NCBI GenBank assembly: GCA_034766995.1
Contig: CM068325.1
Coordinates: forward strand, 8,889,616 to 8,953,615
DNA length: 64,000 nt
Reading direction: 5' to 3'
Source: Acanthacorydalis orientalis
Lineage: Eukaryota; Arthropoda; Insecta; Megaloptera; Corydalidae
Part shown: positions 891-61,677 of the stretch, piece by piece
Layout of the letters: each line of letters opens with the position of its first letter
How positions within the stretch are numbered: the stretch's first letter is position 1
Notes under the pieces: generated by a model
Databases searched by the model: none
Seen by the model: the letters and a program-made list of their open reading frames with translations, nothing else
What the model was told of the DNA's origin: nothing
Made by a program: the position numbers and the translations under genes

Positions 891-1327
891 GGTTGTGAGA
901 TTGAAAAAGAATTTGTGAAAGTGAATTAATTACAGTGCCACAATTATTTTGTGAGATTTCTTGTAGTAATCGCAATTTTATAATGCAAGTGTTTACTGTG
1001 TTGTTTTTTTCTATTTTAAATTGAGTGGCTGCTCGATACTATGTTAGAATTTATATTATTTTTTTTTTTTTAGTTTTATAACTTCAGAAATATATTTCTT
1101 ACTGGTTTATACATTTCTTTGTTGTATTATATATTATGGCTATTTAAATTATACGTATAACAAAAAATGACTGTCGTTAGAAAGAGGGTTGTTCGGTGAT
1201 GGCTTTTCGAGAGAGACTCCCTGCAAGCTTGGATCGACTTCAGCAGAGGGACATTTCAGTTCAAAGAGACCTTCTCTCTTTTTATGATTCTGAGAGACTT
1301 TTTTGATATGTTTGAATTAAAGTAATG
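891..1327 (-). other. U2 downstream spacer, copy 1, with about 165-bp insertion
   Basis: This sequence follows the U2 3' end and matches the spacers at 23972-24240 and 25473-25740 on the other strand. Compared with those it carries about 165 extra AT-rich bases at roughly 1047-1213, between the CTCCCTGCAAGC block and the CTACTATGTTAGA-side block. No gene is seen. Snippets around CTTTAATTCAAAC next to the RNA end could contribute to snRNA 3' processing, but I see no clear 3' box. Confidence 0.8.
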
Positions 1328-1481
1328 AAGGCCGGACCCGGCGGTACTGCAATACCGGGCCAACCCGCGGCGGAGGTGGAGCAAGCTCCTCTAAAAGCAC
1401 TCCGCCATTTTGCAAAAATCAGTTTAATATACTGGTCCTGCAATGCAGAACGTATCAGATATTAAGCTGATAAGAACAGAT
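1328..1481 (-). ncRNA. U2 snRNA gene, 3' part (nt 41 to end), separated from its 5' part
   Basis: On the minus strand this reads through stem-loop II, the Sm-site region (GATTTTTG) and the 3' stem-loops with the conserved CCCGGTATTGCAGTACCG loop. It starts at U2 nt 41 and ends near 1328. Together with 6113-6173 it makes a U2 of about 194 nt, close to insect U2 length. The two parts are separated by a 4.6-kb Utopia-1 insertion, so this copy cannot give a normal U2 RNA. Confidence 0.93.
1461..1481 (-). repeat. Target-site duplication of Utopia-1 copy A, 3' side (21 bp)
   Basis: The minus strand begins ATCTGTTCTTATC and ends CTTAAT; the same 21 bases lie at 6113-6133 on the 5' side. This is U2 nt 41-61. 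The perfect duplication defines both element ends and places the two strand cuts 21 bp apart. Confidence 0.92.
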
Positions 1482-1546
1482 AAAGCAATTTTTATTTAGG
1501 TAATAATTGTTACAAAAGAAATACAGAGCATAGTACAAAATGTCGC

Positions 1547-1560
1547 AGATCAAAGTGTAG
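1547..1560 (-). promoter_or_regulatory. 3' UTR motif complementary to U2 nt 26-39
   Basis: The element's sense strand carries CTACACTTTGATCT, the exact reverse complement of U2 nt 26-39, which ends one base before the insertion site. It lies about 65 nt from the element's 3' end. Copy C has the same 14 bases at 19308-19321, also about 65 nt from its end, and copy E keeps 12 of them. It is antisense relative to U2, so it is not a target-site duplication. A targeting or RNA-docking role is inference. Confidence 0.75.
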
Positions 1561-1638
1561 ATGATAATTAAAAATGACAAACATTAAAAGCCAATAGGAC
1601 ATTTAAAACAAGTTAAAAAAAAAAAAAAATCAGTGTTC

Positions 1639-4600
1639 TTATACAGCTTGTTCGGCAAGATGTTGAGGCAGGGTCGGCGCTGCCGCTGGTGGAGGCTGGG
1701 TGTTGTCCGGCGGATGATATTGCCGGACCCCGGACACGTGTTCGATGTACACATCTCGGGACCAGCGGATCGTGTCGGCCACCATCAGCTTAGCCATCGT
1801 GGACAGGTACCGGGGTGCGATGCCCAGGGACGCCGCGACCTTGTCGTTCGATGACAGCCAGCCGCCGAGCGAACCGACGACGAATGCATCCACGGACACC
1901 GTGAAACCCTGGAGGGTTAGCTGGGCAGCAAGACCGCTATACTTGGCTATTTTCTGCTGCCGAGCCCCCTCCAGGGCGTCACGGCATCCCTCGAATGGAA
2001 TGCACACGTCGACGATCGTTATCCTCCTCGTCGTCTCGTCGATCCTAACGATGTCAGGACGAAGGCGACTGTCGACTCCCGGAACCTCCTTGTTGACCCT
2101 GATGGTAATGGGTCCGCCCACTTTGGCAGCACGCGACAGACGGTCCTGTACGTTGTTATGTCGGTGTTGCCATGCTGCCGAATGGACCGTACAGTGGTTA
2201 AGGACGTGCGGCAACGTCTCATTGGCGTAGCCGCATCGTCGGCACCGTTTATCCCCGTGCCCGAATCGGCGCGTGCCATTAAGTGGCACGACGTCGAGCC
2301 GAGCACGGTGGATAAAACGGTACTCACAGAACCGCGTGTACTTTCCATTCAGCAGAAAGTGGTTGGAGATCGGTGTCTTTCCGGTCGTCTCGATCACCTT
2401 GCCCTGATCACGTAGGCCGATGAGGCGACGATGGTGATATGCTCGGACGGCGGCTCTCAACGAGCGAAGTGCAAAGGCCCGCGACGCCTCCGGGACCACC
2501 ACACGATCCGGCACCTGTCCCGGGCGGCCGATGACGACCGACATGTCCGCTGTGTCGTCGGACCACCGGAAGCTGACATCCAGCTTGGCTCTGAGGCGGC
2601 GGCAGGCGTTTCGAGCCTGGGTCCATAGACTCGAAACATCCCCACCGTCACGCCCCAGAGCACCCTCCAGTGACCCGCTCAGGTACGCCGCCAGCATGAA
2701 ATTATCAGGCTCGCCTCCAATCTTCCGCCTCGCTGCACGCCGAAGGCCGGCCCAAGCCACTGTCCTGACCACTTCGTCTGGGCAGGACAGTAGGCGGAAA
2801 GCGTGCACCACCCGGCTCACGTCCGCGGAGTCGCCGAGTTGGAGCAAGTTAGCACCCCCCTGGTAAGATGTTATATATAAAATATCTGCTGAGGCCCTCT
2901 GCGGTAGGTTCATCCATTTCTTCGCCTTGCTTCGAATGATCTTATCGAGCTCCGTGAGGGGACCCTTTCGGATATTACACCCACGGAGCGCGAAGTCAAG
3001 ACGAGAAAGGATGAACATATTTAGGGCCTCTAATTTTTGCCAGGGGGCCAGGAGGGAGTGGTGTACCCGCATAACGTCCCCCCTAATGTTGTTAATAGTT
3101 TCTAGGGGGGTCTGGGTTACGCGGAACCCAGTGGGTACACCAAGATGTTCGTAATAATCTCCCTCCTGTAAAGCTTCCAACCGGTCTCCCAGGAGCGTGA
3201 ATCGTGTGTCACACGCTTTCCTCTTGCGCCGGCAGTCGACGTGAAGCGAGGCGCATTTGGAGGCGTTGAACTTGATACCCATCCAGGTGGCGGCCGCGCC
3301 CACCTCGTCCAGCAATGATTGCATGGACGAGGGGTCCTTGGCGAGGAGCACCACGTCGTCAGCGTACGCCAGGATCGAGAAATGATGATCAAATAATTGG
3401 TAGCCGTGCGACCCGGACATACCGAGGGCCGCCCTCACCAGAGGCTCGATGGCCAAATTGAACAGCATGGGGGAGAGCGGGCAGCCTTGCTTTACCCCGG
3501 CACGGATCGGAATCGGCTGGGTCTCCCCAGTCGATGTCCGAACCGTGGTAAAAGCCCGGGAGTAAAGTTCGGCAACCACACTCTGCAGCTTCCTGGGCAA
3601 GTTCAACAGGGAAAGCACCCGCCGTATGTGGCCGTGAGGAACAGACCCGAACGCGTTGGCAAGGTCAAGCCATGCCAGCACGATCTGTCTGCCCTCACGA
3701 CGTGCGTCATCAAGGGCACTCTGGACCACGAAGTTGTGTTCGTAACACCCCTCGTGCTCCAGGAACCCTTTCTGCACTGGCGAAATGTTCCCCGTTGTCT
3801 TCGCCCACGAAGCCACCCTGTCAGCCAGGACCCCAGCATACAACTTGGACATCGTGCCACCGAGCGTGAGCGGCCTCCAGTTGTCCAAATCGTCACGGCT
3901 ACCCTTTTTGTGCACGAGCACCGTCCGGGTGTCGGCCCACGCCAGTGGAGTCCTCTCCTCGTGGAGGCAGCGATTGAAAATATATGTTAGTACAACACAC
4001 CCCGGGTCGAGACGTTTCAAGAAAGAATATTTAATTCCGTCTCTTCCCGGGGCGGTGTCCTTCGTCCGGGCCAACCGGCGAAGTACAGATTCCGCCGAGA
4101 ATTCTTCAACGAAAGAATCCTCGGCCACGTCGCACTGCGGGCGGTTAAACGCCTGCCGAACGAGATCGGGCATCTCCACCTCCTCCCGGTCCCGTTCGGC
4201 AAACATCCCACGGAAGTGGTCCTCGACCACCGCCGTGGGCGCCTCGCAGTACGGCGTGCCGTTCTCGGAACGGAGAATCTGCACCATCGCCTTACGCTTG
4301 TTGACCCGGTACAGTTTTTGGATTTTCGCTGCCTCCACGGGGTCGAAGTTCGGTACATCGTGTACCGGACGCCGACGCTCCCGCCGAACAGGTCTTGCGT
4401 TCGGGAAGCGTCGGTGCCGTGGACCTTCCACTGGCGTCGGTCGCAGCCGGGCGAGCTCGTGCGTGACGATCTCCAGTGCCCGTTCGAAGTCCTCCCAATC
4501 GGCCGCCTCCCGCAGGAGACCGAGCCACCGAACCTGGTTGTCCGTCAACCGGGCAGCCGGGTCGGCGGCTGGCTCCTGCGTGCGTTCCGCGACGGCGACG

Positions 4601-5631
4601 TCGGCGAGAGCGGGTGTTATAAAATCAATCACGCTCTCGTCGGCGCCGTCGTCTTGGGAAGACGTCGCCCGGGCACTGTGATCGCCACCTCGATCACCAG
4701 CGCACGCGACGGCATGGCGCTCCCCGCCAACCGGGCGTTCAGCCTCCAGCTGGATGGGAGCCTCGATGGTGTTATGAAGGCTGGCGGCGACCTGAAGCGG
4801 GACACCTGCTGCAGATGCCGCTTCCGGTGCTCCGCCGAGATGTCTAGTCCGGGAACCTCGCGCCTCCTGATCTTCCAGCGGCGTCGCTCCAGCAGGGCAA
4901 TCGGCCGGTGGGGCAGTGATGGTGGTGTCGGTGCTGGCCTCCGTGATGCGTGAAACAAGAGCTGTGCCACGAAGACTCGCCTCCTGGGACGCCAACACTG
5001 CTCGTCCGGTCGATGTTGTCGGTGGGGCTGTGGCCGGCTGCTGAGTAGGATGTTGAACGGCAGCCGGTTCAGGGACCCTCTGCTGGCGACGTCTCGACCG
5101 CGAGGCGATACTCGTCGAGGCAGCCGGCTCGGGTGTTGTTTGCCGGCTGCCGATCGCTAGCTGTGTAGAAGCCTCTCCCTCGATGGTGATTTCGGTCGCG
5201 GCTGCTTCCCCTGCCCGTCTCGTGGGGATCCGCCATGTATCAATAGATTTTAGGTGGCGGATCCCCTGCGGGATTGTCGGGGCAGCCGTGACGACCGATA
5301 CGGGAGAGGCTGGCGGTGAGGTTGGCGCCGGATGTTGTGGCGCCACGTCGCCGCAGGTCTTATGATGGATCTTCATCCTCTTCAGACTCGGGTCCTTGAG
5401 TCCACAGCCCGAGCAGGTAAAGATGAAAACAGGCGTCCCGTGAGTCTTCTTGATGTGTTTCTTGTAGTCGCTGTGCGATTTGTATATGAAAGAGTTTCTA
5501 ATACCCGCACAGCGAACTACATTCCGTACAGAGTGGCACAGCTCACACGCAAATTCCTCCGGCAAAGGCACCGTAACATATATTCTTACTTTGCCGGGGG
5601 ATAACGGAGGCGATGCACCACCGGTGGCCAT
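1639..5631 (-). CDS. Utopia-1 polyprotein: zinc fingers, reverse transcriptase, restriction-like endonuclease
   Basis: This uninterrupted 1330-aa ORF starts at ATG 5631. It would bind element RNA and target DNA, nick U2 DNA and prime reverse transcription there. Two N-terminal zinc fingers are visible: C29-C32-H59-H64 (C2H2) and C73-C76-H89/90-C93 (CCHC). A low-complexity Ala/Pro/Thr-rich stretch (about 100-390) follows. The reverse transcriptase contains FSILAYADD with YADD at 756-759, then a thumb region. Near the C-terminus a CCHC knuckle (C1130, C1133, then H and C in HVLNHC) precedes the endonuclease motif RPD at 1191-1193, with the next Asp at 1208 (PD-x14-D). This is the R2/NeSL-like layout with no apurinic-type endonuclease. 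No catalytic residue I can identify is lost. Confidence 0.93.
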   Translation of the reverse strand: MATGGASPPLSPGKVRIYVTVPLPEEFACELCHSVRNVVRCAGIRNSFIYKSHSDYKKHIKKTHGTPVFIFTCSGCGLKDPSLKRMKIHHKTCGDVAPQHPAPTSPPASPVSVVTAAPTIPQGIRHLKSIDTWRIPTRRAGEAAATEITIEGEASTQLAIGSRQTTPEPAASTSIASRSRRRQQRVPEPAAVQHPTQQPATAPPTTSTGRAVLASQEASLRGTALVSRITEASTDTTITAPPADCPAGATPLEDQEARGSRTRHLGGAPEAASAAGVPLQVAASLHNTIEAPIQLEAERPVGGERHAVACAGDRGGDHSARATSSQDDGADESVIDFITPALADVAVAERTQEPAADPAARLTDNQVRWLGLLREAADWEDFERALEIVTHELARLRPTPVEGPRHRRFPNARPVRRERRRPVHDVPNFDPVEAAKIQKLYRVNKRKAMVQILRSENGTPYCEAPTAVVEDHFRGMFAERDREEVEMPDLVRQAFNRPQCDVAEDSFVEEFSAESVLRRLARTKDTAPGRDGIKYSFLKRLDPGCVVLTYIFNRCLHEERTPLAWADTRTVLVHKKGSRDDLDNWRPLTLGGTMSKLYAGVLADRVASWAKTTGNISPVQKGFLEHEGCYEHNFVVQSALDDARREGRQIVLAWLDLANAFGSVPHGHIRRVLSLLNLPRKLQSVVAELYSRAFTTVRTSTGETQPIPIRAGVKQGCPLSPMLFNLAIEPLVRAALGMSGSHGYQLFDHHFSILAYADDVVLLAKDPSSMQSLLDEVGAAATWMGIKFNASKCASLHVDCRRKRKACDTRFTLLGDRLEALQEGDYYEHLGVPTGFRVTQTPLETINNIRGDVMRVHHSLLAPWQKLEALNMFILSRLDFALRGCNIRKGPLTELDKIIRSKAKKWMNLPQRASADILYITSYQGGANLLQLGDSADVSRVVHAFRLLSCPDEVVRTVAWAGLRRAARRKIGGEPDNFMLAAYLSGSLEGALGRDGGDVSSLWTQARNACRRLRAKLDVSFRWSDDTADMSVVIGRPGQVPDRVVVPEASRAFALRSLRAAVRAYHHRRLIGLRDQGKVIETTGKTPISNHFLLNGKYTRFCEYRFIHRARLDVVPLNGTRRFGHGDKRCRRCGYANETLPHVLNHCTVHSAAWQHRHNNVQDRLSRAAKVGGPITIRVNKEVPGVDSRLRPDIVRIDETTRRITIVDVCIPFEGCRDALEGARQQKIAKYSGLAAQLTLQGFTVSVDAFVVGSLGGWLSSNDKVAASLGIAPRYLSTMAKLMVADTIRWSRDVYIEHVSGVRQYHPPDNTQPPPAAAPTLPQHLAEQAV

Positions 5632-6112
5632 CGTCGGTTAGTGGATTTCTCAGTTTAAATTAAGAAGAATTAAACACAAAACAATAAAAGAACACGTTAA
5701 AAGAGGCCACGTAATGTTCTAAAATAAATTTTAGAGCAGACGTGACCTTTTAAAACTTTACAAATAAAACTAAGAGATTGTGTAACTGAAGGTTACACAA
5801 TCTCAGACGAACACGACGAATCACACGTTAAAATTCACACCACGTAACAAGAGTTACGTGGGCAATACAAAAGAATTTAAAACAAATCTGTAATATTGAT
5901 CGAACCTATCGAAAATTACGATGGCTCGACCAATATTTAAGATATATAAAAAAAAGAAAAATAGAAAAAAAAGAAAGAGAATGAAACACACGAACACGTA
6001 CTGAGAAATCAAGTAACCGACGATGGCTTGCCCGACTGTCCTGCTGGTCCTGGTGGAGGCGGATGTTGTTACCTCCAGGATCCGACCGTGGCTCACGCGC
6101 GAGGATGATGAG
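5632..6112 (-). other. Utopia-1 5' UTR with four stem-loops
   Basis: Four inverted repeats can be folded in the RNA sense. They are 5892-5937 (about 15-bp stem with two G.U pairs), 5840-5861 (CCACGTAAC/GTTACGTGG), 5774-5804 (GAGATTGTGTAAC/GTTACACAATCTC) and 5718-5735 (TCTAAAA/TTTTAGA within an outer CACGT/ACGTG stem). All recur in copy B at 27909-28135, with base changes that keep pairing. The 5' end near 6080-6112 contains a GC-rich CCTCGCGCGTGAGCC segment. Translation control, packaging or 5'-end processing are possible roles. Confidence 0.8.
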
Positions 6113-6173
6113 ATTAAGCTGATAAGAACAGATACTACACTTTGATCTTAGCTCGAAGGAGCCGAGAAGCGAT
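6113..6173 (-). ncRNA. U2 snRNA gene, 5' part (nt 1-61), disrupted
   Basis: Nucleotide 1 is at 6173 (ATCGCTTCTCGG). Stem I, the AAGATCAAAGTGTAGTATCTG segment with the GUAGUA branch-site-recognition element, and the start of stem II are all present. The sequence breaks after nt 61 into Utopia-1. Its stem I (CGGCTCCTTCGAGCTAAG) is unusually long compared with the human and fly forms I remember. Confidence 0.95.
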
Positions 6174-17516: not shown

Positions 17517-17567
17517 ATCGCTTCTCGGCTCCTTCGAGCTAAGATCAAAGTGTAGTATCTGTTCTTA
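17517..17567 (+). ncRNA. U2 snRNA gene, 5' part (nt 1-51), disrupted
   Basis: It is identical to the left copy through ATCTGTTCTTA (nt 41-51) and then diverges into Utopia-2 5'-end sequence. Stem I and the GTAGTA branch-site element are intact. The matching 3' part lies 6.2 kb away at 23817, behind two elements. Confidence 0.92.
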
Positions 17568-19307: not shown

Positions 19308-19321
19308 CTACACTTTGATCT
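19308..19321 (+). promoter_or_regulatory. 3' UTR motif complementary to U2 nt 26-39 (copy C)
   Basis: CTACACTTTGATCT is identical to the copy A motif and at the same distance (about 65 nt) from the element end. Copy E has 12 of the 14 bases at 25239-25250; copies F and G show decayed forms. Confidence 0.75.
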
Positions 19322-19385
19322 GCGATATTTTATTAAGTTTTGTATTCTCGTTTTTTTTGTATTATTATTTAATAAAAATTACTTA

Positions 19386-19639: not shown

Positions 19640-19830
19640 AATACCATAACGGTATAAGTCATTAGTGCCGCACAATAATGACACTCTGCAATAAACACTA
19701 ACGACCGGAAAGCCCATCGCCAGGTAGTGTGCTGTGAAATAACCCGTCGGTGATTCTGAGAAAAAACAGCATATCACGTAAATCTCATCGATAATATCCA
19801 TTACTGCGTACAAGAATCACTGCGGAAAAC

Positions 19831-22800
19831 ATGTCTGGAAATCACATGGTAATTTCGCATGCCACACTGGCGTTGGACGCGATGGTAGACGACGGCGACA
19901 ACATCCGAGAGGAGAGTGTGATCGTTGAGATAGAGTACCCGTTCCCAGCGGAGTTCCCGTGCATGCGCTGCGGCGGTGCAGGCTCAAAAACAGCGGGACG
20001 GAATTGCTTCAGGTACAAAACCCACTCCGACCTAAAGAAACATCTGAAAAAGGTCCACGGCCCGCCCGTACTTATCTTCGTGTGCGCGGGCTGCCAGAAA
20101 AAAGAGGAGAACCTGAAGAAATTGAAAGCGCACGCCGCTAAGTGCCTGGGAATACGGAGGAACGACGACGCAGACGAGGCGCACATAGAACCCGTGTCGG
20201 GAACAGCACAGGCGATGCCCAACTTAAACACCGACGGGATTCCTGCGGCCGCCACGAACGACGATCACACTGACGCCGCCGATACTGCCACGACAAACCA
20301 AGCGTTGACATCAGACGCAGAGGCCCCAACACCACCGCCACTGCCAAACCCGACCTGGACAACAGACACCGCGGCGAAGAAGAGAATGAAAAGTGCTCAC
20401 CCGCGGGCTGCTGCTGACGCTGCTACTACTCGTAACCACCACGACTCACTGGCGTCCATACTTGGAGATCAGTGCCCAGACTCGCCGTCCGAACCGGATC
20501 CCCGGGAAAACATGGCAAAAGAGCAGACGCAATTAGCACCACAGCAGCAGCAATCACACCCATTCCAGTCAATATCAGAACACGACATAGAAACCGCGAC
20601 CAGTGCTGAGGCAATGCCCGCCCCCAACGTCGACACAACGGAAGATGCTGCCAACACTTCAGGAAACAAAGCTGCAGCACCACAAGCGAACCCACCGCCA
20701 ATAATGGACGTCCGTCTAACGGACGACCAGTGTCGATGGATTGACCAGCTGAGCAGAGCAGACAGCTGGGAGGAGTTCGAATCGACTGTGGGGGCAATTA
20801 CCGAAGAGTTCGCCGCGCTAAAACCGACAACGCAGACCATGGTGAGGAGGCGATGCAACAAAAGAACGTATCCGAACAGCCGCCCAGTAAACGGAGGCAA
20901 CCGACGCCGAAAGCCATGGTTTGACGCCGCGGAAGCATCGAAACTACAAAAACTGTACCGCGTCAACAAAAGGAAAGCGATAACGCAGATCCTCCAGGGT
21001 CCCGATTGCTCGCCGTACTGCCAGGTGAGCGCCGAAGTGGTCACCGACCACTATAGACGCGTGTTCGCTGCGAATGATCGGCCACGGCGAGCCATGCCCG
21101 ATCACGTCCGGAGGACATTGCATCCAAAGCAGTACGACGAGACGGTGACCGGAGTACCGACGGCGTCGCTCGAAGAAGACTTCGCACCTGAAACGGTCAC
21201 AGCGCGCTTGCTGAGGACTTCGGACACGGCACCAGGGAAAGATGGCGTCAGATACTCGTACCTGAAGCGATTGGACCCGGGCTGCCGTGTCTTGACGAAG
21301 ATCTTCAACCGATGCTTCCGGGAGGAAAAGACACCGCTAGCGTGGGCGGACACGAGGACGGTGCTCGTGCACAAGAAAGGACGTAAGGATGACCTGACGA
21401 ACTGGCGGCCACTAACGATGGCCAACACGATGGCCAAGTTATATGCGGCAGTAGTTGCCGACCGCATCGCTTGCTGGGCGAAGGGGACGCGCAACATCTC
21501 GCCTGTGCAGAAAGGCTTTATGGAAGGTGAGGGATGCTTCGAGCATAACTTCATAGTCCAGACGGCCATTGATGACGCACGGCGAGATGGTAGGGACCTG
21601 GTGCTGGTGTGGCTTGACCTCACCAACGCGTTTGGCTCCCTGCCGCATGACCACATAGAGGGTTCGCTGCGCGAGATGAACCTCCCCAAAAAGCTACTGA
21701 GCGTGGTAACTGAACTATACTCCCGCACTACTACCACTGTACGCACGACATCGGGGGAGAGCGACGTCATCCACATGCGTGCGGGAGTCAAGCAAGGATG
21801 CCCGCTCAGCCCGATCATCTTCAACTTGGCCATCGACCCACTAATAAGGGTGGCTCAGCAGGAGGCCGGATCGCTAGGGTACACTATGCACGGGCACGAA
21901 TTCTCGACACTGGCATACGCGGACGACGTGGTGCTGATCGCCAACGGAGCCGACTCCATGGCGCTGCTACTGGAGCGGGTCGGAGAGGCAGCGGACTGGA
22001 TGGGACTGAAATTTAACCCGAAAAAGTGCGCTTCGCTGCACATTAAAAAGAGATGCGGAGTGCAGCCCACCCAGTTCACCATCCAGGGTGGGAACCCAGT
22101 GGTATTGAACGAAGGCGAGGAGTACCAGCATCTCGGTATCCCTACCGGGTACCGAGTGGCACAGACACCGAACGAATCGATCGCAGCGATCCGTGAGGAT
22201 GTGAAGAAGCTGGACGAGTCCCTTCTAGCGCCCTGGCAGAAGCTGGAGGCCCTCAACATGTTCTTGCTGTCAAGGATGGAGTTCATCCTACGCGGTGCAA
22301 ACGTCGCCAAGGCGCCGCTGATAGCCGCCGATAAAACCATCAAGGCGGCCGCTAAGAAATGGATGAACCTCCCGAAACGAGGGTCCCCGGAACTGCTATA
22401 CATCACATCGTACCAGGGAGGCGCGAACCTGATACCACTGGCGGACTCGGCCGACGTCAACAGGGTAACCCACGGCTTCAAGCTCCTGGCGTGCAGGGAC
22501 ACTACCGTCAGGGAGGTGGCGTGGGAAAGCCTGCGAAGAGTCGTCGGCAAGAAGATCGGGTCGAACACACCGGACGAGACAACGATCGCAAATTACCTGA
22601 GCGGATCCATGGACGGACGACTGGCGAGAGAAAGTGGCGACATCACGAGCCTGTGGTCGCAGACTCGCAGCGCGTGTCGCCGCCTCAACAACAAGATCGG
22701 CGTCACCTTCCACTGGTGCGCCGAGAAACAGGACCTGTCCCTAGTCGTGCGCGTTGCAGGACGCGATCCGGAACGTACCATCGTCCCGGAGACAGCACTG

Positions 22801-23577
22801 GCTCAGGTAACGCGAACACTACGTACGGGAGTGCGGGCATACTACGCGGCGCGGCTATTGAAGAAGCCGGACCAGGGGAAGAGCTTCGCGATGACGTCGA
22901 GAGCGGGAGCCAGCAACCATTTCATCCTGAATGGAAGATATACCCGCTTCTGTGACTACCGATTCATCCACCGGGCCAGGCTAGACGTCGTTCCGCTGAA
23001 CGGCGCTCGACGCTTCGGCACCGGCGACAAGAGGTGTCGCAGATGTGGGTACAAGAACGAAACGCTGGCTCACGTGCTGAATCACTGTAAGGTGCATTCA
23101 GCGGCGTGGCAAAGACGCCACGACGACGTCCTTAATAGGCTCGCCCGGGCGTCGAAGGTGGACAGAGGCAGTACCATTGACGTCAACAAGACCGTGAAAG
23201 GGGTGAGCGGAGCGCTAAGACCCGACCTGGTGATCCGGAACGAGACAACGAAGGAGGTCCGGATCGTCGACGTCTGCATCCCGTTCGAAGGAGCAGCAGA
23301 TGCCCTTGAGGTAGCAAGGTTGCAAAAAACCCAAAAATATAACGCAATTGCAACCGAGCTCACCAACAAAGGGTACCGTGTGGCGGTAGAGGGATTCGTC
23401 GTCGGGTCGCTGGGAGCATGGCTCTCGAGCAACGAGAGGGTCGCAAGGCTGCTGGGTATCTCGCAGCGGTATGCGGCAACTATGGCGCGGCTCATGGTCT
23501 CGGACACCATTAGGTGGAGCCGGGACATCTACGTTGAACACCTGACGGGACAGCGCCAGTATCAGAGTGCTCAGTGA
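19831..23577 (+). CDS. Utopia-2 polyprotein: zinc fingers, reverse transcriptase, restriction-like endonuclease
   Basis: An intact 1248-aa ORF begins at ATG 19831. Two fingers lie at C44-C47-H71-H76 and C85-C88-H101-C105. A Gln/Ala/Thr-rich spacer (about 110-290) follows. The reverse transcriptase carries FSTLAYADD, with YADD at 696-699. The C-terminal knuckle (CRRCGYKNETLAHVLNHC) precedes the endonuclease core, PD at 1131-1132 and Asp at 1147, the same PD-x14-D spacing as Utopia-1. The protein would nick U2 DNA and copy element RNA onto the cut. The intact frame and motifs make it a good candidate for an active copy. Confidence 0.93.
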   Translation: MSGNHMVISHATLALDAMVDDGDNIREESVIVEIEYPFPAEFPCMRCGGAGSKTAGRNCFRYKTHSDLKKHLKKVHGPPVLIFVCAGCQKKEENLKKLKAHAAKCLGIRRNDDADEAHIEPVSGTAQAMPNLNTDGIPAAATNDDHTDAADTATTNQALTSDAEAPTPPPLPNPTWTTDTAAKKRMKSAHPRAAADAATTRNHHDSLASILGDQCPDSPSEPDPRENMAKEQTQLAPQQQQSHPFQSISEHDIETATSAEAMPAPNVDTTEDAANTSGNKAAAPQANPPPIMDVRLTDDQCRWIDQLSRADSWEEFESTVGAITEEFAALKPTTQTMVRRRCNKRTYPNSRPVNGGNRRRKPWFDAAEASKLQKLYRVNKRKAITQILQGPDCSPYCQVSAEVVTDHYRRVFAANDRPRRAMPDHVRRTLHPKQYDETVTGVPTASLEEDFAPETVTARLLRTSDTAPGKDGVRYSYLKRLDPGCRVLTKIFNRCFREEKTPLAWADTRTVLVHKKGRKDDLTNWRPLTMANTMAKLYAAVVADRIACWAKGTRNISPVQKGFMEGEGCFEHNFIVQTAIDDARRDGRDLVLVWLDLTNAFGSLPHDHIEGSLREMNLPKKLLSVVTELYSRTTTTVRTTSGESDVIHMRAGVKQGCPLSPIIFNLAIDPLIRVAQQEAGSLGYTMHGHEFSTLAYADDVVLIANGADSMALLLERVGEAADWMGLKFNPKKCASLHIKKRCGVQPTQFTIQGGNPVVLNEGEEYQHLGIPTGYRVAQTPNESIAAIREDVKKLDESLLAPWQKLEALNMFLLSRMEFILRGANVAKAPLIAADKTIKAAAKKWMNLPKRGSPELLYITSYQGGANLIPLADSADVNRVTHGFKLLACRDTTVREVAWESLRRVVGKKIGSNTPDETTIANYLSGSMDGRLARESGDITSLWSQTRSACRRLNNKIGVTFHWCAEKQDLSLVVRVAGRDPERTIVPETALAQVTRTLRTGVRAYYAARLLKKPDQGKSFAMTSRAGASNHFILNGRYTRFCDYRFIHRARLDVVPLNGARRFGTGDKRCRRCGYKNETLAHVLNHCKVHSAAWQRRHDDVLNRLARASKVDRGSTIDVNKTVKGVSGALRPDLVIRNETTKEVRIVDVCIPFEGAADALEVARLQKTQKYNAIATELTNKGYRVAVEGFVVGSLGAWLSSNERVARLLGISQRYAATMARLMVSDTIRWSRDIYVEHLTGQRQYQSAQ

Positions 23578-23816
23578 TCTTGCGGACGACGACAGAGTGG
23601 CTGATAGGGACATACGAACATTATGAAAGTATAGTGATATGTGAAAATGAGCGTGGGTGTGAGTGCGTGAAAGTGCAGAATGTATGTATAGATATGTGTG
23701 CATAGGCGCACGTATATACAAGAAATCCATAATATATATTTATTAAATTGAAGCGATAGTATTACGTTAAACATGTTAATATTCTTTGTATAATCTCTAT
23801 AAAAATAAACTACTTA

Positions 23817-24454: not shown

Positions 24455-25317
24455 CACTGTGAGTACCGTTTTATCCACCGTGCTCGGCTCGACGTCGTGC
24501 CACTTAATGGCACGCGCCGATTCGGGCACGGGGATAAACGGTGCCGACGATGCGGCTACGCCAATGAGACGTTGTGCGCACGTCCTTAACCACTGTACGG
24601 TCCATTCGGCAGCATGGCAACACCGACATAACAACGTACAGGACCGTCTGTCGCGTGCTGCCAAAGTGGGCGGACCCATTACCATCAGGGTCAACAAGGA
24701 GGTTCCGGGAGTCGACAGTCGCCTTCGTCCTGACATCGTTAGGATCGACGAGACGACGAGGAGGATAACGATCGTCGACGTGTGCATTCCATTCGAGGGA
24801 TGCCGTGACGCCCTGGAGGGGGCTCGGCAGCAGAAAATAGCCAAGTATAGCGGTCTTGCTGCCCAGCTAACCCTCCAGGGTTTCACGGTGTCCGTGGATG
24901 CATTCGTCGTCGGTTCGCTCGGCGGCTGGCTGTCATCGAACGACAAGGTCGCGGCGTCCCTGGGCATCGCACCCCGGTACCTGTCCACGATGGCTAAGCT
25001 GATGGTGGCCGACACGATCCGCTGGTCCCGAGATGTGTACATCGAACACGTGTCCGGGGTCCGGCAATATCATCCGCCGGACAACACCCCGCCTCCACCA
25101 GCGGCAGCGCCGACCCTGGCCCAAAACCTTGCCGAGGAACCAGCTGAATAGGAACAATGATTTTTTAATTTGTTTTTCTTGTTAAATAACATTTTGAAAT
25201 TTATTTTTAAAATGTTATGTTTGTTTGCTTTTATGTACACACTTTGATCTGCGATAGTTTTTTATTATGCTCTATATTATAATTTTATCTGTACTATTTA
25301 CTAAATAAAACTACTTT
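24455..25317 (+). mobile_element. Utopia-1 copy E, 3' fragment joined to microsatellite
   Basis: The 3' 860 bp of Utopia-1 begins abruptly at TGTGAGTACCGTTTTATCC after the microsatellite and ends at the usual U2 junction. It lacks a U2 5' part, so it probably arose by recombination or deletion within the U2 array. Confidence 0.88.
24461..25151 (+). pseudogene. Utopia-1 copy E C-terminal coding remnant with frameshift
   Basis: It encodes the endonuclease end of Utopia-1 ([17 protein letters not shown] to LAEEPAE). A one-base insertion near 24574 (GTTGTGCGCACG where copies A and C have GTTGCCGCACG) breaks the frame inside the CCHC knuckle. The RPD...IVDV core downstream is otherwise intact. 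Confidence 0.85.
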
Positions 25318-27272: not shown

Positions 27273-27718
27273 CCCTCACCCTGCAGGGTTTCACGGTGTC
27301 CGTGGATGCATTCGTCGTCGGTTCACTCGGCGGTTGGCTCTCGTCGAACGACAAGGTCGCGGCGTCCCTGGGCATCGCACACCGATACCTGTCCACCATG
27401 GCCAAGCTGATGGTGGCCGACACGATCCGCTGGTCGCGAGATGTCTATATTGAACACGTGTCCGGGGTCCGGTAATATCATCCGCTGGACAACACCCCGC
27501 CTCCACCAGCGGCAGCGCTGATCCTGGCCCAACATCTCTTCGAGGAAGCAGCTGTATAAGAACAAGAATTTTTAATTTGTTTTTGTTATGTATAATATTT
27601 TAAAATTATTTTTAATATGTTATGTTATTTAATTTTAAAACTACACTTGATCTGCGACATTTCTATTGTGCTATATATTACTTTGTACAAATTATTATTT
27701 ACTAATAAAAACTGCTTA
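27273..27718 (+). pseudogene. Utopia-1 copy G, extreme 3' fragment
   Basis: It begins at CCCTCACCCTGCAGG directly after copy F and covers the last 90 or so codons plus the 3' UTR. A TAA at 27474 (GTCCGGTAATATC) truncates the frame early. It ends at the U2 target sequence at 27719. Confidence 0.85.
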
Positions 27719-56403: not shown

Positions 56404-56759
56404 ATGTCGAGTGTCGTGTCCGAACCGTGAAAAAGGCGGAATTTTCGCTCGCCTACACGAACGCTAGCGACGTCGAAGGACGGAGCGTCCTCTCTGTCCG
56501 GTAGATGCGCCAAGAGGTGCGTGTTTCAGAGTCGTTCGAAACGACGCACGACGCCCGAACGATTCTCTCGCCATCCGACGCGCTCCCGCTCAGCTCGATT
56601 CCGGGGCCGTATAGCGCGGCCGTACTGTACCGGTTGGACAGTACGATCTCCGCATCTAGGATTTCTGTTCCGTCCGAGCTCGTGTATCTCAATCCGCGTC
56701 GATCCATTTTATAATTTCAAACCATGGACAAAATGAAATTATAAAAGAAGAATTCAAAA
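56404..56759. other. GC-rich unique segment between two satellites
   Basis: It contains one copy of the core TAGGATTTCTGTTCCGTCCG (56655-56674) that later becomes the 123-bp repeat. The minus strand has an 84-codon frame (56453-56707), which I do not recognise as a protein. Confidence 0.4.
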
Positions 56760-59700
56760 AGAAATTATTATTCGCCGTCACGACCTGGTCGTCCGAATTC
56801 TCCGCCTCTAGGATTTCTTTTCCGTCCGTGCTCGTCTCCGGCACGGCTTCCCGGAGGAGGCGTCCGGTCGCGTCTGTGCAGAAGATTTCTCACAGACACC
56901 TTGGATCCCGTCGTCCGAATTTTCCGCATCTATGATTTCTGTTTCGTCCGTGCTCGTCTCCGGCACGGCTTCCCGGAGGAGGCTTATGGTCGCGTCTGTG
57001 CAGAAGATTTCTCACAGACACCTTGGATTCCGTCGTCTGAATTTTCCGCATCTATGATTTCTGTTCCGTCCGTTCTTTTGTCCGGCACGCTCTCCCGGAG
57101 GAGGCGTCCGGTCGCGTCTGTGCAGAAGATTTCTCACAGACACCTTGGATTCCGTCGTCTGAATTTTCCGCATCTATGATTTCTGTTCCGTCCGTTCTTT
57201 TGTCCGGCACGCTCTCCCGGAGGAGGCGTCCGGTCGCGTCTGTGCAGAAGATTTCTCACAGACACGCGTGACGCGAGAGTGCTGTATCGGCTTTCCGGCG
57301 TCGATGTCCCGGACGAGTCTGGAAAAGAACGACTCGTGAAAACCGCCGCGACGTCCGTCATCTACGAGTACCTGTCGGCTCTGCCGAATATCTACGGCCG
57401 GCGTTCATGCCGTACTCGATCCCGGCCGCCGGCGAAATCGTTCGACGGTACACTAACGACCCGTTCAGCTCCTTCACAGAGTCGCAAAGAGCGAGCCATT
57501 CGATCGAGAAGTCGTGCGAGGTCTCCGGCTCGGTCTCGATGTTGTTCCGAAGGAGGCGTCCGGTCGCGTCTGTGTAGACGATTTCTCACAGACACCTTGG
57601 ATTCCGTCGTCCGAATTTTCCGCATCTATGATTTCTGTTCCGTCCGTTCTTTTGTCCGGCACGCTCTCCCGGAGGAGGCGTCCGGTCGCGTCTGTGCAGA
57701 AGAATTCTCACAGACACCTTGGATCCCGTCGTCCGAATTTTCCGCATCTATGATTTCTGTTCCGTCCGTTCTTTTGTCCGGCACGCTCTCCCGGAGGAGG
57801 CGTCCGGTCGCGTCTGTGCAGAAGATTTCTCACAGACACCTTGGATCCCGTCGTCCGAATTTTCCGCATCTAGGATTTCTGTTCCGTCCGTGCTCGTGTC
57901 CGGCACGTCCTCCCGGAGGAGGCGTCAGGTCGCGTCTGTGCAGAAGATTTCTCACAGACACCTCGGATCCCGTCGTCCGAATTTTCCGCATCTAGGATTT
58001 CTGTTCCGTCGGTGCTTGTGTCCGGCACGCTCTCCAGGAGGAGGCGTCCGGTCGCGTCTGTGCAGAAGATTTCTCACAGACACCTCGGATCCCGTCGTCC
58101 GAATTTTCCGCATCTAGGATTTCTGTTCCGTCCGTGCTCGTGTCCGGCACGTCCTCCCGGAGGAGGCGTCCGGTCGCGTCTGTGCAGAAAATTTCTCACA
58201 GACACATTGGATCCCGTCGTCCGAATTTTCCGCATCTAGGATTTCTGTTCCGTCCGTGCTAGTGTCCGGCACGACTCGTACCTCCTCAGAAGAACACGCG
58301 CATCCGCGTCTGACAAGTTGCGGATTCGATGTCCTCTTGCCGGACGCGGAAGGATGTGATACTTGAAGCGACAATTGGCGCTCTTCCACGTTCTCTGGAG
58401 ATTACCGGAGGAGGCTTATGGTCGAGTCTGTGCAGAAGATTTCTCACAGACACCTTGGATCCCGTCGTCCGAATTTTCCGCATCTAGGATTTCTGTTCCG
58501 TCCGTTCTTTTGTCCGGCACGCTCTCCCGGAGGAGGCGTCCGGTCGCGTCTGTGCAGAAGATTTCTCACAGACACCTTGGATCCCGTCGTCCGAATTTTC
58601 CGCATCTAGGATTTCTGTTTCGTCCGTGCTCGTCTCCGGCACGGCTTCCCGGAGGAGGCTTATGGTCGCGTCTGTGCAGAAGATTTCTCACAGACACCTT
58701 GGATTCCGTCGTCTGAATTTTCCGCATCTATGATTTCTGTTCCGTCCGTTCTTTTGTCCGGCACGCTCTCCCGGAGGAGGCGTCCGGTCGCGTCTGTGCA
58801 GAAGATTTCTCACAGACACCTTGGATTCCGTCGTCTGAATTTTCCGCATCTATGATTTCTGTTCCGTCCGTTCTTTTGTCCGGCACGCTCTCCCGGAGGA
58901 GGCGTCCGGTCGCGTCTGTGCAGAAGATTTCTCACAGACACGCGTGACGCGAGAGTGCTGTATCGGCTTTCCGGCGTCGATGTCCCGGACGAGTCTGGAA
59001 AAGAACGACTCGTGAAAACCGCCGCGACGTCCGTCATCTACGAGTACCTGTCGGCTCTGCCGAATATCTACGGCCGGCGTTCATGCCGTACTCGATCCCG
59101 GCCGCCGGCGAAATCGTTCGACGGTACACTAACGACCCGTTCAGCTCCTTCACAGAGTCGCAAAGAGCGAGCCATTCGATCGAGAAGTCGTGCGAGGTCT
59201 CCGGCTCGGTCTCGATGTTGTTCCGAAGGAGGCGTCCGGTCGCGTCTGTGTAGACGATTTCTCACAGACACCTTGGATTCCGTCGTCCGAATTTTCCGCA
59301 TCTATGATTTCTGTTCCGTCCGTTCTTTTGTCCGGCACGCTCTCCCGGAGGAGGCGTCCGGTCGCGTCTGTGCAGAAGAATTCTCACAGACACCTTGGAT
59401 CCCGTCGTCCGAATTTTCCGCATCTATGATTTCTGTTCCGTCCGTTCTTTTGTCCGGCACGCTCTCCCGGAGGAGGCGTCCGGTCGCGTCTGTGCAGAAG
59501 ATTTCTCACAGACACCTTGGATCCCGTCGTCCGAATTTTCCGCATCTAGGATTTCTGTTCCGTCCGTGCTCGTGTCCGGCACGTCCTCCCGGAGGAGGCG
59601 TCAGGTCGCGTCTGTGCAGAAGATTTCTCACAGACACCTCGGATCCCGTCGTCCGAATTTTCCGCATCTAGGATTTCTGTTCCGTCGGTGCTTGTGTCCG

Positions 59701-61111
59701 GCACGCTCTCCAGGAGGAGGCGTCCGGTCGCGTCTGTGCAGAAGATTTCTCACAGACACCTCGGATCCCGTCGTCCGAATTTTCCGCATCTAGGATTTCT
59801 GTTCCGTCCGTGCTCGTGTCCGGCACGTCCTCCCGGAGGAGGCGTCCGGTCGCGTCTGTGCAGAAAATTTCTCACAGACACATTGGATCCCGTCGTCCGA
59901 ATTTTCCGCATCTAGGATTTCTGTTCCGTCCGTGCTAGTGTCCGGCACGACTCGTACCTCCTCAGAAGAACACGCGCATCCGCGTCTGACAAGTTGCGGA
60001 TTCGATGTCCTCTTGCCGGACGCGGAAGGATGTGATACTTGAAGCGACAATTGGCGCTCTTCCACGTTCTCTGGAGATTACCGGAGGAGGCTTATGGTCG
60101 AGTCTGTGCAGAAGATTTCTCACAGACACCTTGGATCCCGTCGTCCGAATTTTCCGCATCTAGGATTTCTGTTCCGTCCGTTATTTTGTCCGGCACGCTC
60201 TCCCGGAGGAGGCGTCCGGTCGCGTCTGTGCAGAAGATTTCTCACAGACACCTTGGATCCCGTCGTCCGAATTTTCCGCATCTAGGATTTCTGTTCCGTC
60301 CGTGCTCGTGTCCGGCACGTCCTCCCGGAGGAGGCGTCCGGTCGCGTCCGTGCAGAAGATTTCTCACAGACACATTGGATCCCGTCGTCCGAATTTTCCG
60401 CATCTAGGATTTCTGTTCCGTCCGTGCTCGTGTCCGGCACGTCCTCCCGGAGGAGGCGTCCGGTCGCGTCTGTGCAGAAGATTTCTCACAGACACATTGG
60501 ATCCCGTCGTCCGAATTTTCCGCATCTAGGATTTCTGTTCCGTCCGTGCTAGTGTCCGGCACGACTCGTACCTCCTCAGAAGAACACGCGCATCCGCGTC
60601 TGACAAGTTGCGGATTCGATGTCCTCTTGCCGGACGCGGAAGGATGTGATACTTGAAGCGACAATTGGCGCTCTTCCACGTTCTCTGGAGATTCCCGGAG
60701 GAGGCTTATGGTCGAGTCTGTGCAGAAGATTTCTCACAGACACATTGGATCCCGTCGTCCGAATTTTCCGCATCTAGGATTTCTGTTCCGTCCGTGCTAG
60801 TGTCCGGCACGACTCGTACCTCCTCAGAAGAACACGCGCATCCGCGTCTGACAAGTTGCGGATTCGATGTCCTCTTGCCGGACGCGGAAGGATGTGATAC
60901 TTGAAGCGACAATTGGCGCTCTTCCACGTTCTCTGGAGATTCCCGGAGGAGGCTTATGGTCGAGTCTGTGCAGAAGATTTCTCACAGACACCTTGGATCC
61001 CGTCGTCCGAATTTTCCGCATCTAGGATTTCTGTTCCGTCCGTGCTCGTGTCCGGCACGTCCTCCCGGAGGAGGCGTCCGGTCGCGTCTGTGCAGAAGAT
61101 TTCTCACAGAC
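56760..61111. repeat. 123-bp minisatellite with conserved hairpins and higher-order structure
   Basis: The basic unit holds GTCTGTGCAGAAGATTTCTC, ACAGACACCTTGGAT, CCCGTCGTCCGAATTTTCCG, CATCTAGGATTTCTGTTCCG and CCTCCCGGAGGAGG. GTCTGTG/CACAGAC and CCTCC/GGAGG are perfect inverted repeats. A longer variant unit (GACTCGTACCTCCTCAGAAG to CTCTGGAGATT) occurs near 58268, 59944, 60558 and 60806. Because 123 is a multiple of three, several frames stay open on both strands; I do not treat them as genes. Confidence 0.9.
56941..60292. repeat. 1676-bp tandem segmental duplication within the minisatellite
   Basis: 56941-58616 and 58617-60292 are nearly identical, offset by 1676 bp, including a non-repetitive insert (57262-57545 and 58938-59221). 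One difference is C/A near 60182. The similarity shows a very recent duplication or an assembly artefact. Confidence 0.88.
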
Positions 61112-61677
61112 CGGTCGAAGTGGGTTCGTCCTCGTGGTGACCGGGGGATCCAGTGTTTGTCGTGTAGTATGTTATTTTGAGCCTTTTCTTTTCTGTTTAC
61201 CTTTTCTTTTTTTTTTCTTCTTTTCTGGGTTGCGTATAGGTGGCCTGTGTCCTCCACTAAGTGGGCACTTTTGCTCTTTGTAACATGCTGACTCTCACTG
61301 GATGCGGAACGCCCACCCATGTGTTTGCCGTGCATGGAGACCTGTGTCGTTGGAAACGGGGATCCTGAAAGTTGAGGGAGCTCGTCTTTTTCGGATACTT
61401 ATATTCGTGCCCCAATACACTTTTTTGGCCCTTGCTTCAGCTAAACAGGCGGCCCGGGGCTAACCCACCCCGGGTCAATCGGCTTCCGGTGCTCCTTATG
61501 AGACGGATTGGGTGACGGACCCGGACTGCAGGGACGCGTTTGGCTCGTTTTCCTTGTTTTTTGGGTCCTATATCATCTGGACAACCCTGGCGTCCGCACC
61601 GGTTTGCGGATACGGCGTCCCCTTGTTGGGCTCCGTGGTGGGTGGGGACCCAGGTGACGAAATTTTAAAATTTTCCC

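Follow-up and report, generated by a model that had tools for sequence, protein, structure and literature searches.

An antisense U2 block in the 3′ tails of Utopia retrotransposons and its possible pairing with folded U2 RNA

Utopia retrotransposons inserted in U2 snRNA genes carry in their 3′ tails, at a near-constant place, a short block complementary to two separated parts of U2, and this block persists in tails that otherwise differ. Judged from its sequence, it reads as antisense to U2 nt 1-5 plus nt 26-39, i.e. to the open parts of folded U2 RNA, with stem-loop I skipped. We infer that the pairing forms in cells, the block being maintained to pair with the 5′ domain of U2 RNA in its folded state and likely serving as a tether; we give this reading an even chance.

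Inserted copies and the block in the window

The window, i.e. the whole stretch of 64 000 nucleotides that was analysed, corresponds to C13:8889616-8953615 of a 548-Mb genome in 27 contigs and contains multiple retrotransposons within U2 snRNA genes. Copy A (1482..6112, (-)) begins past U2 nt 61 (6113) and ends at its own 3′ end, with U2 nt 41 at 1481; its open frame (1639-5637) encodes an RVT_1 domain. U2 nt 1-61 lies 5′ of this copy (6113..6173, (-)) as a possible cis partner, and U2 from nt 41 onward lies 3′ of it (1322..1481, (-)). ATCTGTTCTTATCAGCTTAAT (U2 nt 41-61) flanks copy A on both sides (1481-1461 and 6133-6113), giving a 21-bp target duplication. Copy C is preceded by U2 nt 1-51 (17517..17567, (+)). 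Copy D, a member of sub-clade D2, has an ORF of 1260 aa (19795..23577, (+)) with an RVT_1 domain and 60% identity to A over 959 aa. RVT_1 was the sole Pfam domain above threshold in the A and D ORFs, and a protein search returned 124 relatives (best identity 52%), many from arthropods and a turtle, with 'Utopia' in none of the listed names.

Two Utopia traits are present, the reverse transcriptase domain and insertion in U2 at a single 3′ junction, the latter seen at 64 ends whose Utopia tails are followed by U2-type sequence (68 of 70 junction places read, see below). The main text of Kojima and Jurka (2015, PMC4640811) describes Utopia as targeting the U2 snRNA gene, encoding a reverse transcriptase and having more than one family next to another in U2. 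The 3′ junction given there is the same; the starting nucleotide in Phytophthora, U2 nt 39, was equated with nt 42 here, and target duplications are given as none in arthropods and 20 bp in reptiles, compared with 21 bp for copy A. An earlier note on this DNA had placed the insertion between U2 nt 40 and 41. The downstream U2 part does restart at ATCTG (nt 41), but for elements ending in A (e.g. copy C) insertion at 40|41 is indistinguishable from 41|42.

With U2 nt 1 at 6173 (-) or 17517 (+), nt 26-39 are AGATCAAAGTGTAG. The exact complementary 14-mer, CTACACTTTGATCT, was located at 1547-1560 (-) and 19308-19321 (+), in the element sense strand both times, and coordinates and U2 alignment agreed with the earlier description of the motif as a complement of U2 nt 26-39. 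It is thus antisense to U2, as had been claimed, and target duplication as the sole explanation was rejected because the strand is wrong. The last base of the 14-mer precedes the element 3′ end by 65 nt in A and 64 nt in C (about 65 nt had been reported), and the conserved block extends past the 14-mer into GCGA. In copy A, piece 1 (CTACACTTTGATCT, 1547..1560, (-), complement of U2 nt 26-39) adjoins piece 2 (GCGA, 1543..1546, (-), complement of U2 nt 2-5); in copy C, CTACACTTTGATCT (U2 nt 26-39) is followed by GCGAT (nt 1-5) at 19308..19326 (+). Copy E was said to keep 12 bases, which was borne out at 25237-25250 (2 mismatches), the block being ACACTTTGATCT (U2 nt 26-37) followed by GCGAT (25239..25255, (+)). 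A fourth end (junction 27719) has CTACACTTGATCT, which is perfectly antisense to U2 of the AAG form, followed by GCGA (27641..27657, (+)). At the end of copy D (junction 23817), whose tail is identical to L078, the 14-mer was absent, and the remnant GAAGCGAT, complementary to U2 nt 1-8, stands without piece 1 (23750..23757, (+)). CTACACTTTGATCT was also present at 6135-6148 (+) and 17542-17555 (-), both sites being U2 5′ halves read on the other strand. Allowing up to 2 mismatches, the 14-mer matched 5 sites in the window (0.42 expected by shuffling).

The block in 3′ ends throughout the genome

Further 3′ ends were gathered independently of the motif by a genome search for the junction AATAAAN{1,9}TWATCTGTTCTTA, a pattern that misses tails with an altered AATAAA or an altered junction. 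It occurred at 70 places, compared with 2 for a reversed control; 68 places were read, C4:8098301 and C11:16624743 being left out. Four (L066, L097, L098 and L099) were rejected as chance junction matches, having neither a Utopia tail nor further U2 sequence. The other 64 were Utopia ends, 48 of them distinct over 160 nt. An AATAAA within approximately 20 nt of the 3′ junction was seen in all tails (in the window at 1482-1500 and 19370-19385), as the search pattern required, and its place appears constant across families.

Some form of the block was present at a near-constant place in 64/64 ends. Neither absence of the motif from other copies nor random placement, which the earlier note had named as refuting its proposal, was encountered. 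Exact CTACACTTTGATCT was found in 14 ends and exact CTACACTTGATCT in 16, with 2 more carrying CTACACTTGATCT with one substitution; CTACGC variants accounted for 4 ends, the L065 type for 5, the L040 type for 3, E-like forms for 2, and the L042, L061, L062 (CTACGCTTTTGATCT) and L057b types for 1 each. Sub-clade D1 (7/64 ends) carries ATACTACAC-A-AAGCGA, with ATATTACAC in one, and D2 (7/64) carries GAAGCG with GAT (GCT in L044) and no piece 1, keeping 7-9 nt. GCGA was seen in 62/64 ends, missing in L044 and L061; in the 48 distinct ends its start lies 56-79 nt (mostly 63-68 nt) from the 3′ end. The 14-mer pattern occurred 45 times genome-wide (5 for the reversed control), some of these being U2 5′ parts read on the other strand. 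Scans of viral and genome contig collections for relatives returned none, so that all comparisons are within one genome.

In an alignment of 15 A-clade tails, no 19-column window was more informative than the one at the block, which reached 30.5 bits, compared with 20.4 bits for the best non-overlapping window. Raw identity failed to mark it in the same tails (0.72 compared with 0.58 elsewhere, some AT-rich windows reaching 0.765), the 0.72 being an underestimate because the aligner placed GATCT one column off in L042, L061, L065 and L092. In almost every stretch that matched, the C-terminal proteins of the A clade shared 83-100% identity with A (64% in a single stretch of L038), and therefore the tails evolve faster than the ORF; for the D clade, C-terminal identity to A was 55-69%. 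As a separate observation, A-clade tails are approximately 58% identical outside the block and the C-terminal proteins mostly 90-99%, a contrast that suggests tail swapping or very rapid tail change. RNAalifold predicted no common fold for A-clade tails, by which a shared tail hairpin was ruled out as the sole explanation. When 20 tails were folded singly, the block was slightly more open than the whole tail (unpaired 0.47-0.78 compared with 0.45-0.57).

Complementarity and cofolding with U2 RNA

In 48/48 distinct ends, the block contained the longest exact match to the complement of U2 nt 1-45, with a mean of 10.0 nt (range 6-15); mean control matches were 5.1 nt (sense), 5.6 nt (reversed antisense) and 5.5 nt (reversed sense). 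Antisense matches spanned parts of nt 25-42 or of nt 1-9, and none lay inside nt 10-24. Match length was compared with 1000 dinucleotide shuffles of each of 11 tails, the identical copy L095 standing for the tail of A. The observed length was reached by 0/1000 shuffles for the A-type and C tails, by 1 for E and by 30 for the 27719 end; the corresponding numbers per 1000 were 12 for L042, 13 for L065, 50 and 13 for D1, 15 and 26 for D2, and 727 for L057b. Antisense U2 nt 1-39 is CTACACTTTGATCTTAGCTCGAAGGAGCCGAGAAGCGAT, and the block consists of its outer parts, CTACACTTTGATCT and GCGA(T), minus the stem-loop I part; GCGA(U) is complementary to U2 nt 1-4/5. In sub-clade D1 (approximately 60% protein identity) the register is shifted to U2 nt 34-42 and 1-7, with 9 + 7 nt paired.

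Sixteen tails were cofolded with U2 nt 1-48 using RNAcofold. A three-way junction was predicted in 11/11 A-clade tails, in which all or part of nt 1-5 and nt 26-39 were paired, with some bulges, and the hairpin was retained. Both D1 tails paired with nt 1-6 and nt 34-42, retaining a longer native stem, and L057b paired with nt 1-6 and 34-39 at a small energy gain. Two D2 tails were cofolded, one pairing with nt 1-8 alone and the other having additional weak pairs elsewhere. Pairing of at least 4 of nt 1-6 and at least 6 of nt 26-42 with the hairpin retained was predicted for 45/48 distinct ends, compared with 4/240 segments of 40 nt taken from elsewhere in these tails and 347/3800 shuffles. 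The three ends lacking it were L050, where the block lies partly beyond the cut, and L047 and L078, both D2; the remaining D2 tails lean partly on pairs outside the block and are not counted as support.

For 19 representatives, energy gains were compared with those of 200 shuffles each. The gain was reached by 0/200 shuffles in 12/14 A-clade tails, by 1/200 in L061 and L062, by 0 and 0 for the D1 tails, by 4 and 14 for L049 and L078 (D2) and by 96 for L057b. Whole-tail duplex energies with U2 nt 1-45 did not set D1 apart, the values being reached by 15-56 of 100 shuffles, and this measure is hard to interpret in clade D, the high G+C content of stem-loop I being the probable reason. Complementarity was thus limited to the open parts of folded U2, in D2 in part, and in L057b it was within the shuffle range.

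The earlier note had called for covariation between the motif and U2 variants. Scored by eye, approximately 4 kinds of point substitution in the block keep a pair via G.U and approximately 8 break one, which is not above chance. Twenty-four genome matches to CTAAGATCN{1,4}GTGTAGTATCTGTT gave the partner forms of U2 as AAA (20), AA (3) and AAAA (1). The U runs of the block come in the lengths seen for the A run of U2 (3, 2 and 4), which may be taken as suggestive, but such runs vary easily. Against the AAA form, which is the majority in U2, the 18 TT-class ends have one mispaired base, and no association was seen by eye between block U-run class and the type of U2 that flanks the element 3′. 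The expectation of covariation was therefore unsupported by point substitutions and only suggestively matched by U-run lengths. Among variant U2 genes, L101-L103 (C8) and L104 (C9) were observed to have AAG (three) or AAAAG (one) instead of the usual AAAG before GTGTAG, and their 3′ portions are also unlike the main type.

Possible roles of the block and comparison with known systems

Under the favoured reading, U2 nt 1-5 and 26-39 (in D1, nt 1-7 and 34-42) would pair with the tail while stem-loop I stays folded between them. The partner could be supplied in trans, either as U2 snRNA or as U2 transcripts still being synthesised, or in cis, as the U2 nt 1-61 leader on a transcript from the U2 promoter, the existence of such transcripts being presumed. 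The likeliest role would be that of a tether, by which element RNA is held on U2 RNA and the RNP gathers at sites of U2 transcription, next to the target genes; alternatively, the tether may join both ends of the element RNA at the target. The two pieces of the block correspond to open segments of U2 RNA, and pairing with U2 RNA is therefore favoured over a DNA guide. Of the two roles in the earlier note, binding of U2 RNA has gained from the second piece, which fits beyond stem-loop I, whereas the holding of element RNA on the target DNA strand has been weakened. Weighing against pairing with U2 RNA, D2, one copy of which has an open 1260-aa ORF, keeps 7-9 nt only, and L057b does no better than shuffles.

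The block addresses the U2 nucleotides that pair with U6 (at the 5′ end, in the strand GAAGCG) and those that pair with the branch site (GUAGUA); unlike the U6 and branch-site strands, it resides in a retrotransposon tail, and its likeness to them is putative. A more specific proposal, with a probability well short of even, is that the retrotransposon finds its target gene via the RNA of that gene, the tail mimicking U6 and branch-site strands, binding U2 RNA, whether nascent or mature, around stem-loop I and riding to U2 loci to insert there. In PMC3338655, Cajal bodies are described near U2 loci in approximately 70% of HeLa cells, and works cited there attribute this proximity, by their titles, to nascent snRNA.

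The main rival is a signal of the 3′ tail, read by protein or used for packaging, that the element's own protein would bind at the block; the likeness to antisense U2 would then stem from an old capture or be incidental. GCGA is the best kept part and persists in D2 despite the loss of piece 1, the distance from the end is steady (56-79 nt) and substitutions do not, by eye, favour pairing, all of which would suit such a signal. It fails, however, to predict 9-15 nt of complementarity to the sequence by the insertion site, the skipping of stem-loop I or the register shift in D1, and RNAalifold found no shared fold; we consider it possible at a level well short of even.

A DNA guide, in which the tail is kept at the target by pairing of the block to the top DNA strand immediately 5′ of the nick, appears improbable. 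It would resemble group II intron EBS/IBS pairing with the 5′ exon, in which mobile element RNA pairs with the target strand just 5′ of the insertion point, and the geometry permits it, piece 1 ending 1-2 bases from the insertion point. It leaves unexplained piece 2 at U2 nt 1-5 beyond stem-loop I, which is sensible for folded RNA and not for DNA, and D2 tails sit in U2 although they are without piece 1. Moreover, AGATCAAAGTGTAG was absent from the upstream flank examined at 2/2 off-target insertions with intact tails (L022/L109 and L015, copies outside U2 that are both 5′-truncated by BLAST); a complement upstream of the insertion point was thus present in U2 itself and at 0/2 off-target sites. 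The block differs from group II EBS/IBS in both respects, the second piece skipping a hairpin of the RNA product and the off-target insertions being without a complement.

That the block is a functionless fossil of an inverted U2 fragment captured by the tail seems very improbable. In favour of this, the block is collinear with antisense U2 nt 1-39, the middle being absent, but the remaining A-clade tail has drifted to 58% identity with the block still at 30.5 bits, and parts of it persist in a clade with 60% protein identity. A chance match can be dismissed almost entirely, for although shuffled tails average matches of 5.6-6.5 nt, 14 nt was reached in 0/1000 shuffles for the A and C tails and numerous tails share the match at the same position.

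The finding of a few gene copies within a large genome by site-specific retrotransposons is usually credited to DNA-binding protein domains. R2 of the 28S rRNA genes resembles the present elements in its site-specific insertion, in which target-primed reverse transcription involves the RNA of the 3′ tail; in the part of the R2 literature drawn on here, target choice is attributed to protein domains and template ends, and an antisense segment against the target is unmentioned. Such a tail segment is likewise unmentioned in the main text of PMC4640811. As the earlier note had supposed for this lineage, no description of a guide-like antisense tail block was found in the literature searched, coverage of which was partial, so that absence is not proof. 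The element is of a known kind, and what would be new to Utopia is the antisense block. If the reading of pairing with U2 RNA is true, an antisense block kept up against the RNA that the target itself makes would bring in homing or tethering by RNA-RNA contact, would go some way to accounting for the persistence of families on a low-copy target and could provide a re-writable handle for site-specific insertion tools.

Two minor observations were made on repeated sequences. A long tandem array with units of approximately 122 bp and higher-order spacing lies at 56666-61242 of the window. In L004, L005 and L006-L008, U2 nt 2-39 is repeated head to tail, and a 5′-cut U2 is fused to a full one; each unit stops exactly at GTGTAG (nt 39), 1-2 bases before the Utopia insertion point, and these are possibly products of the element's reverse transcriptase.
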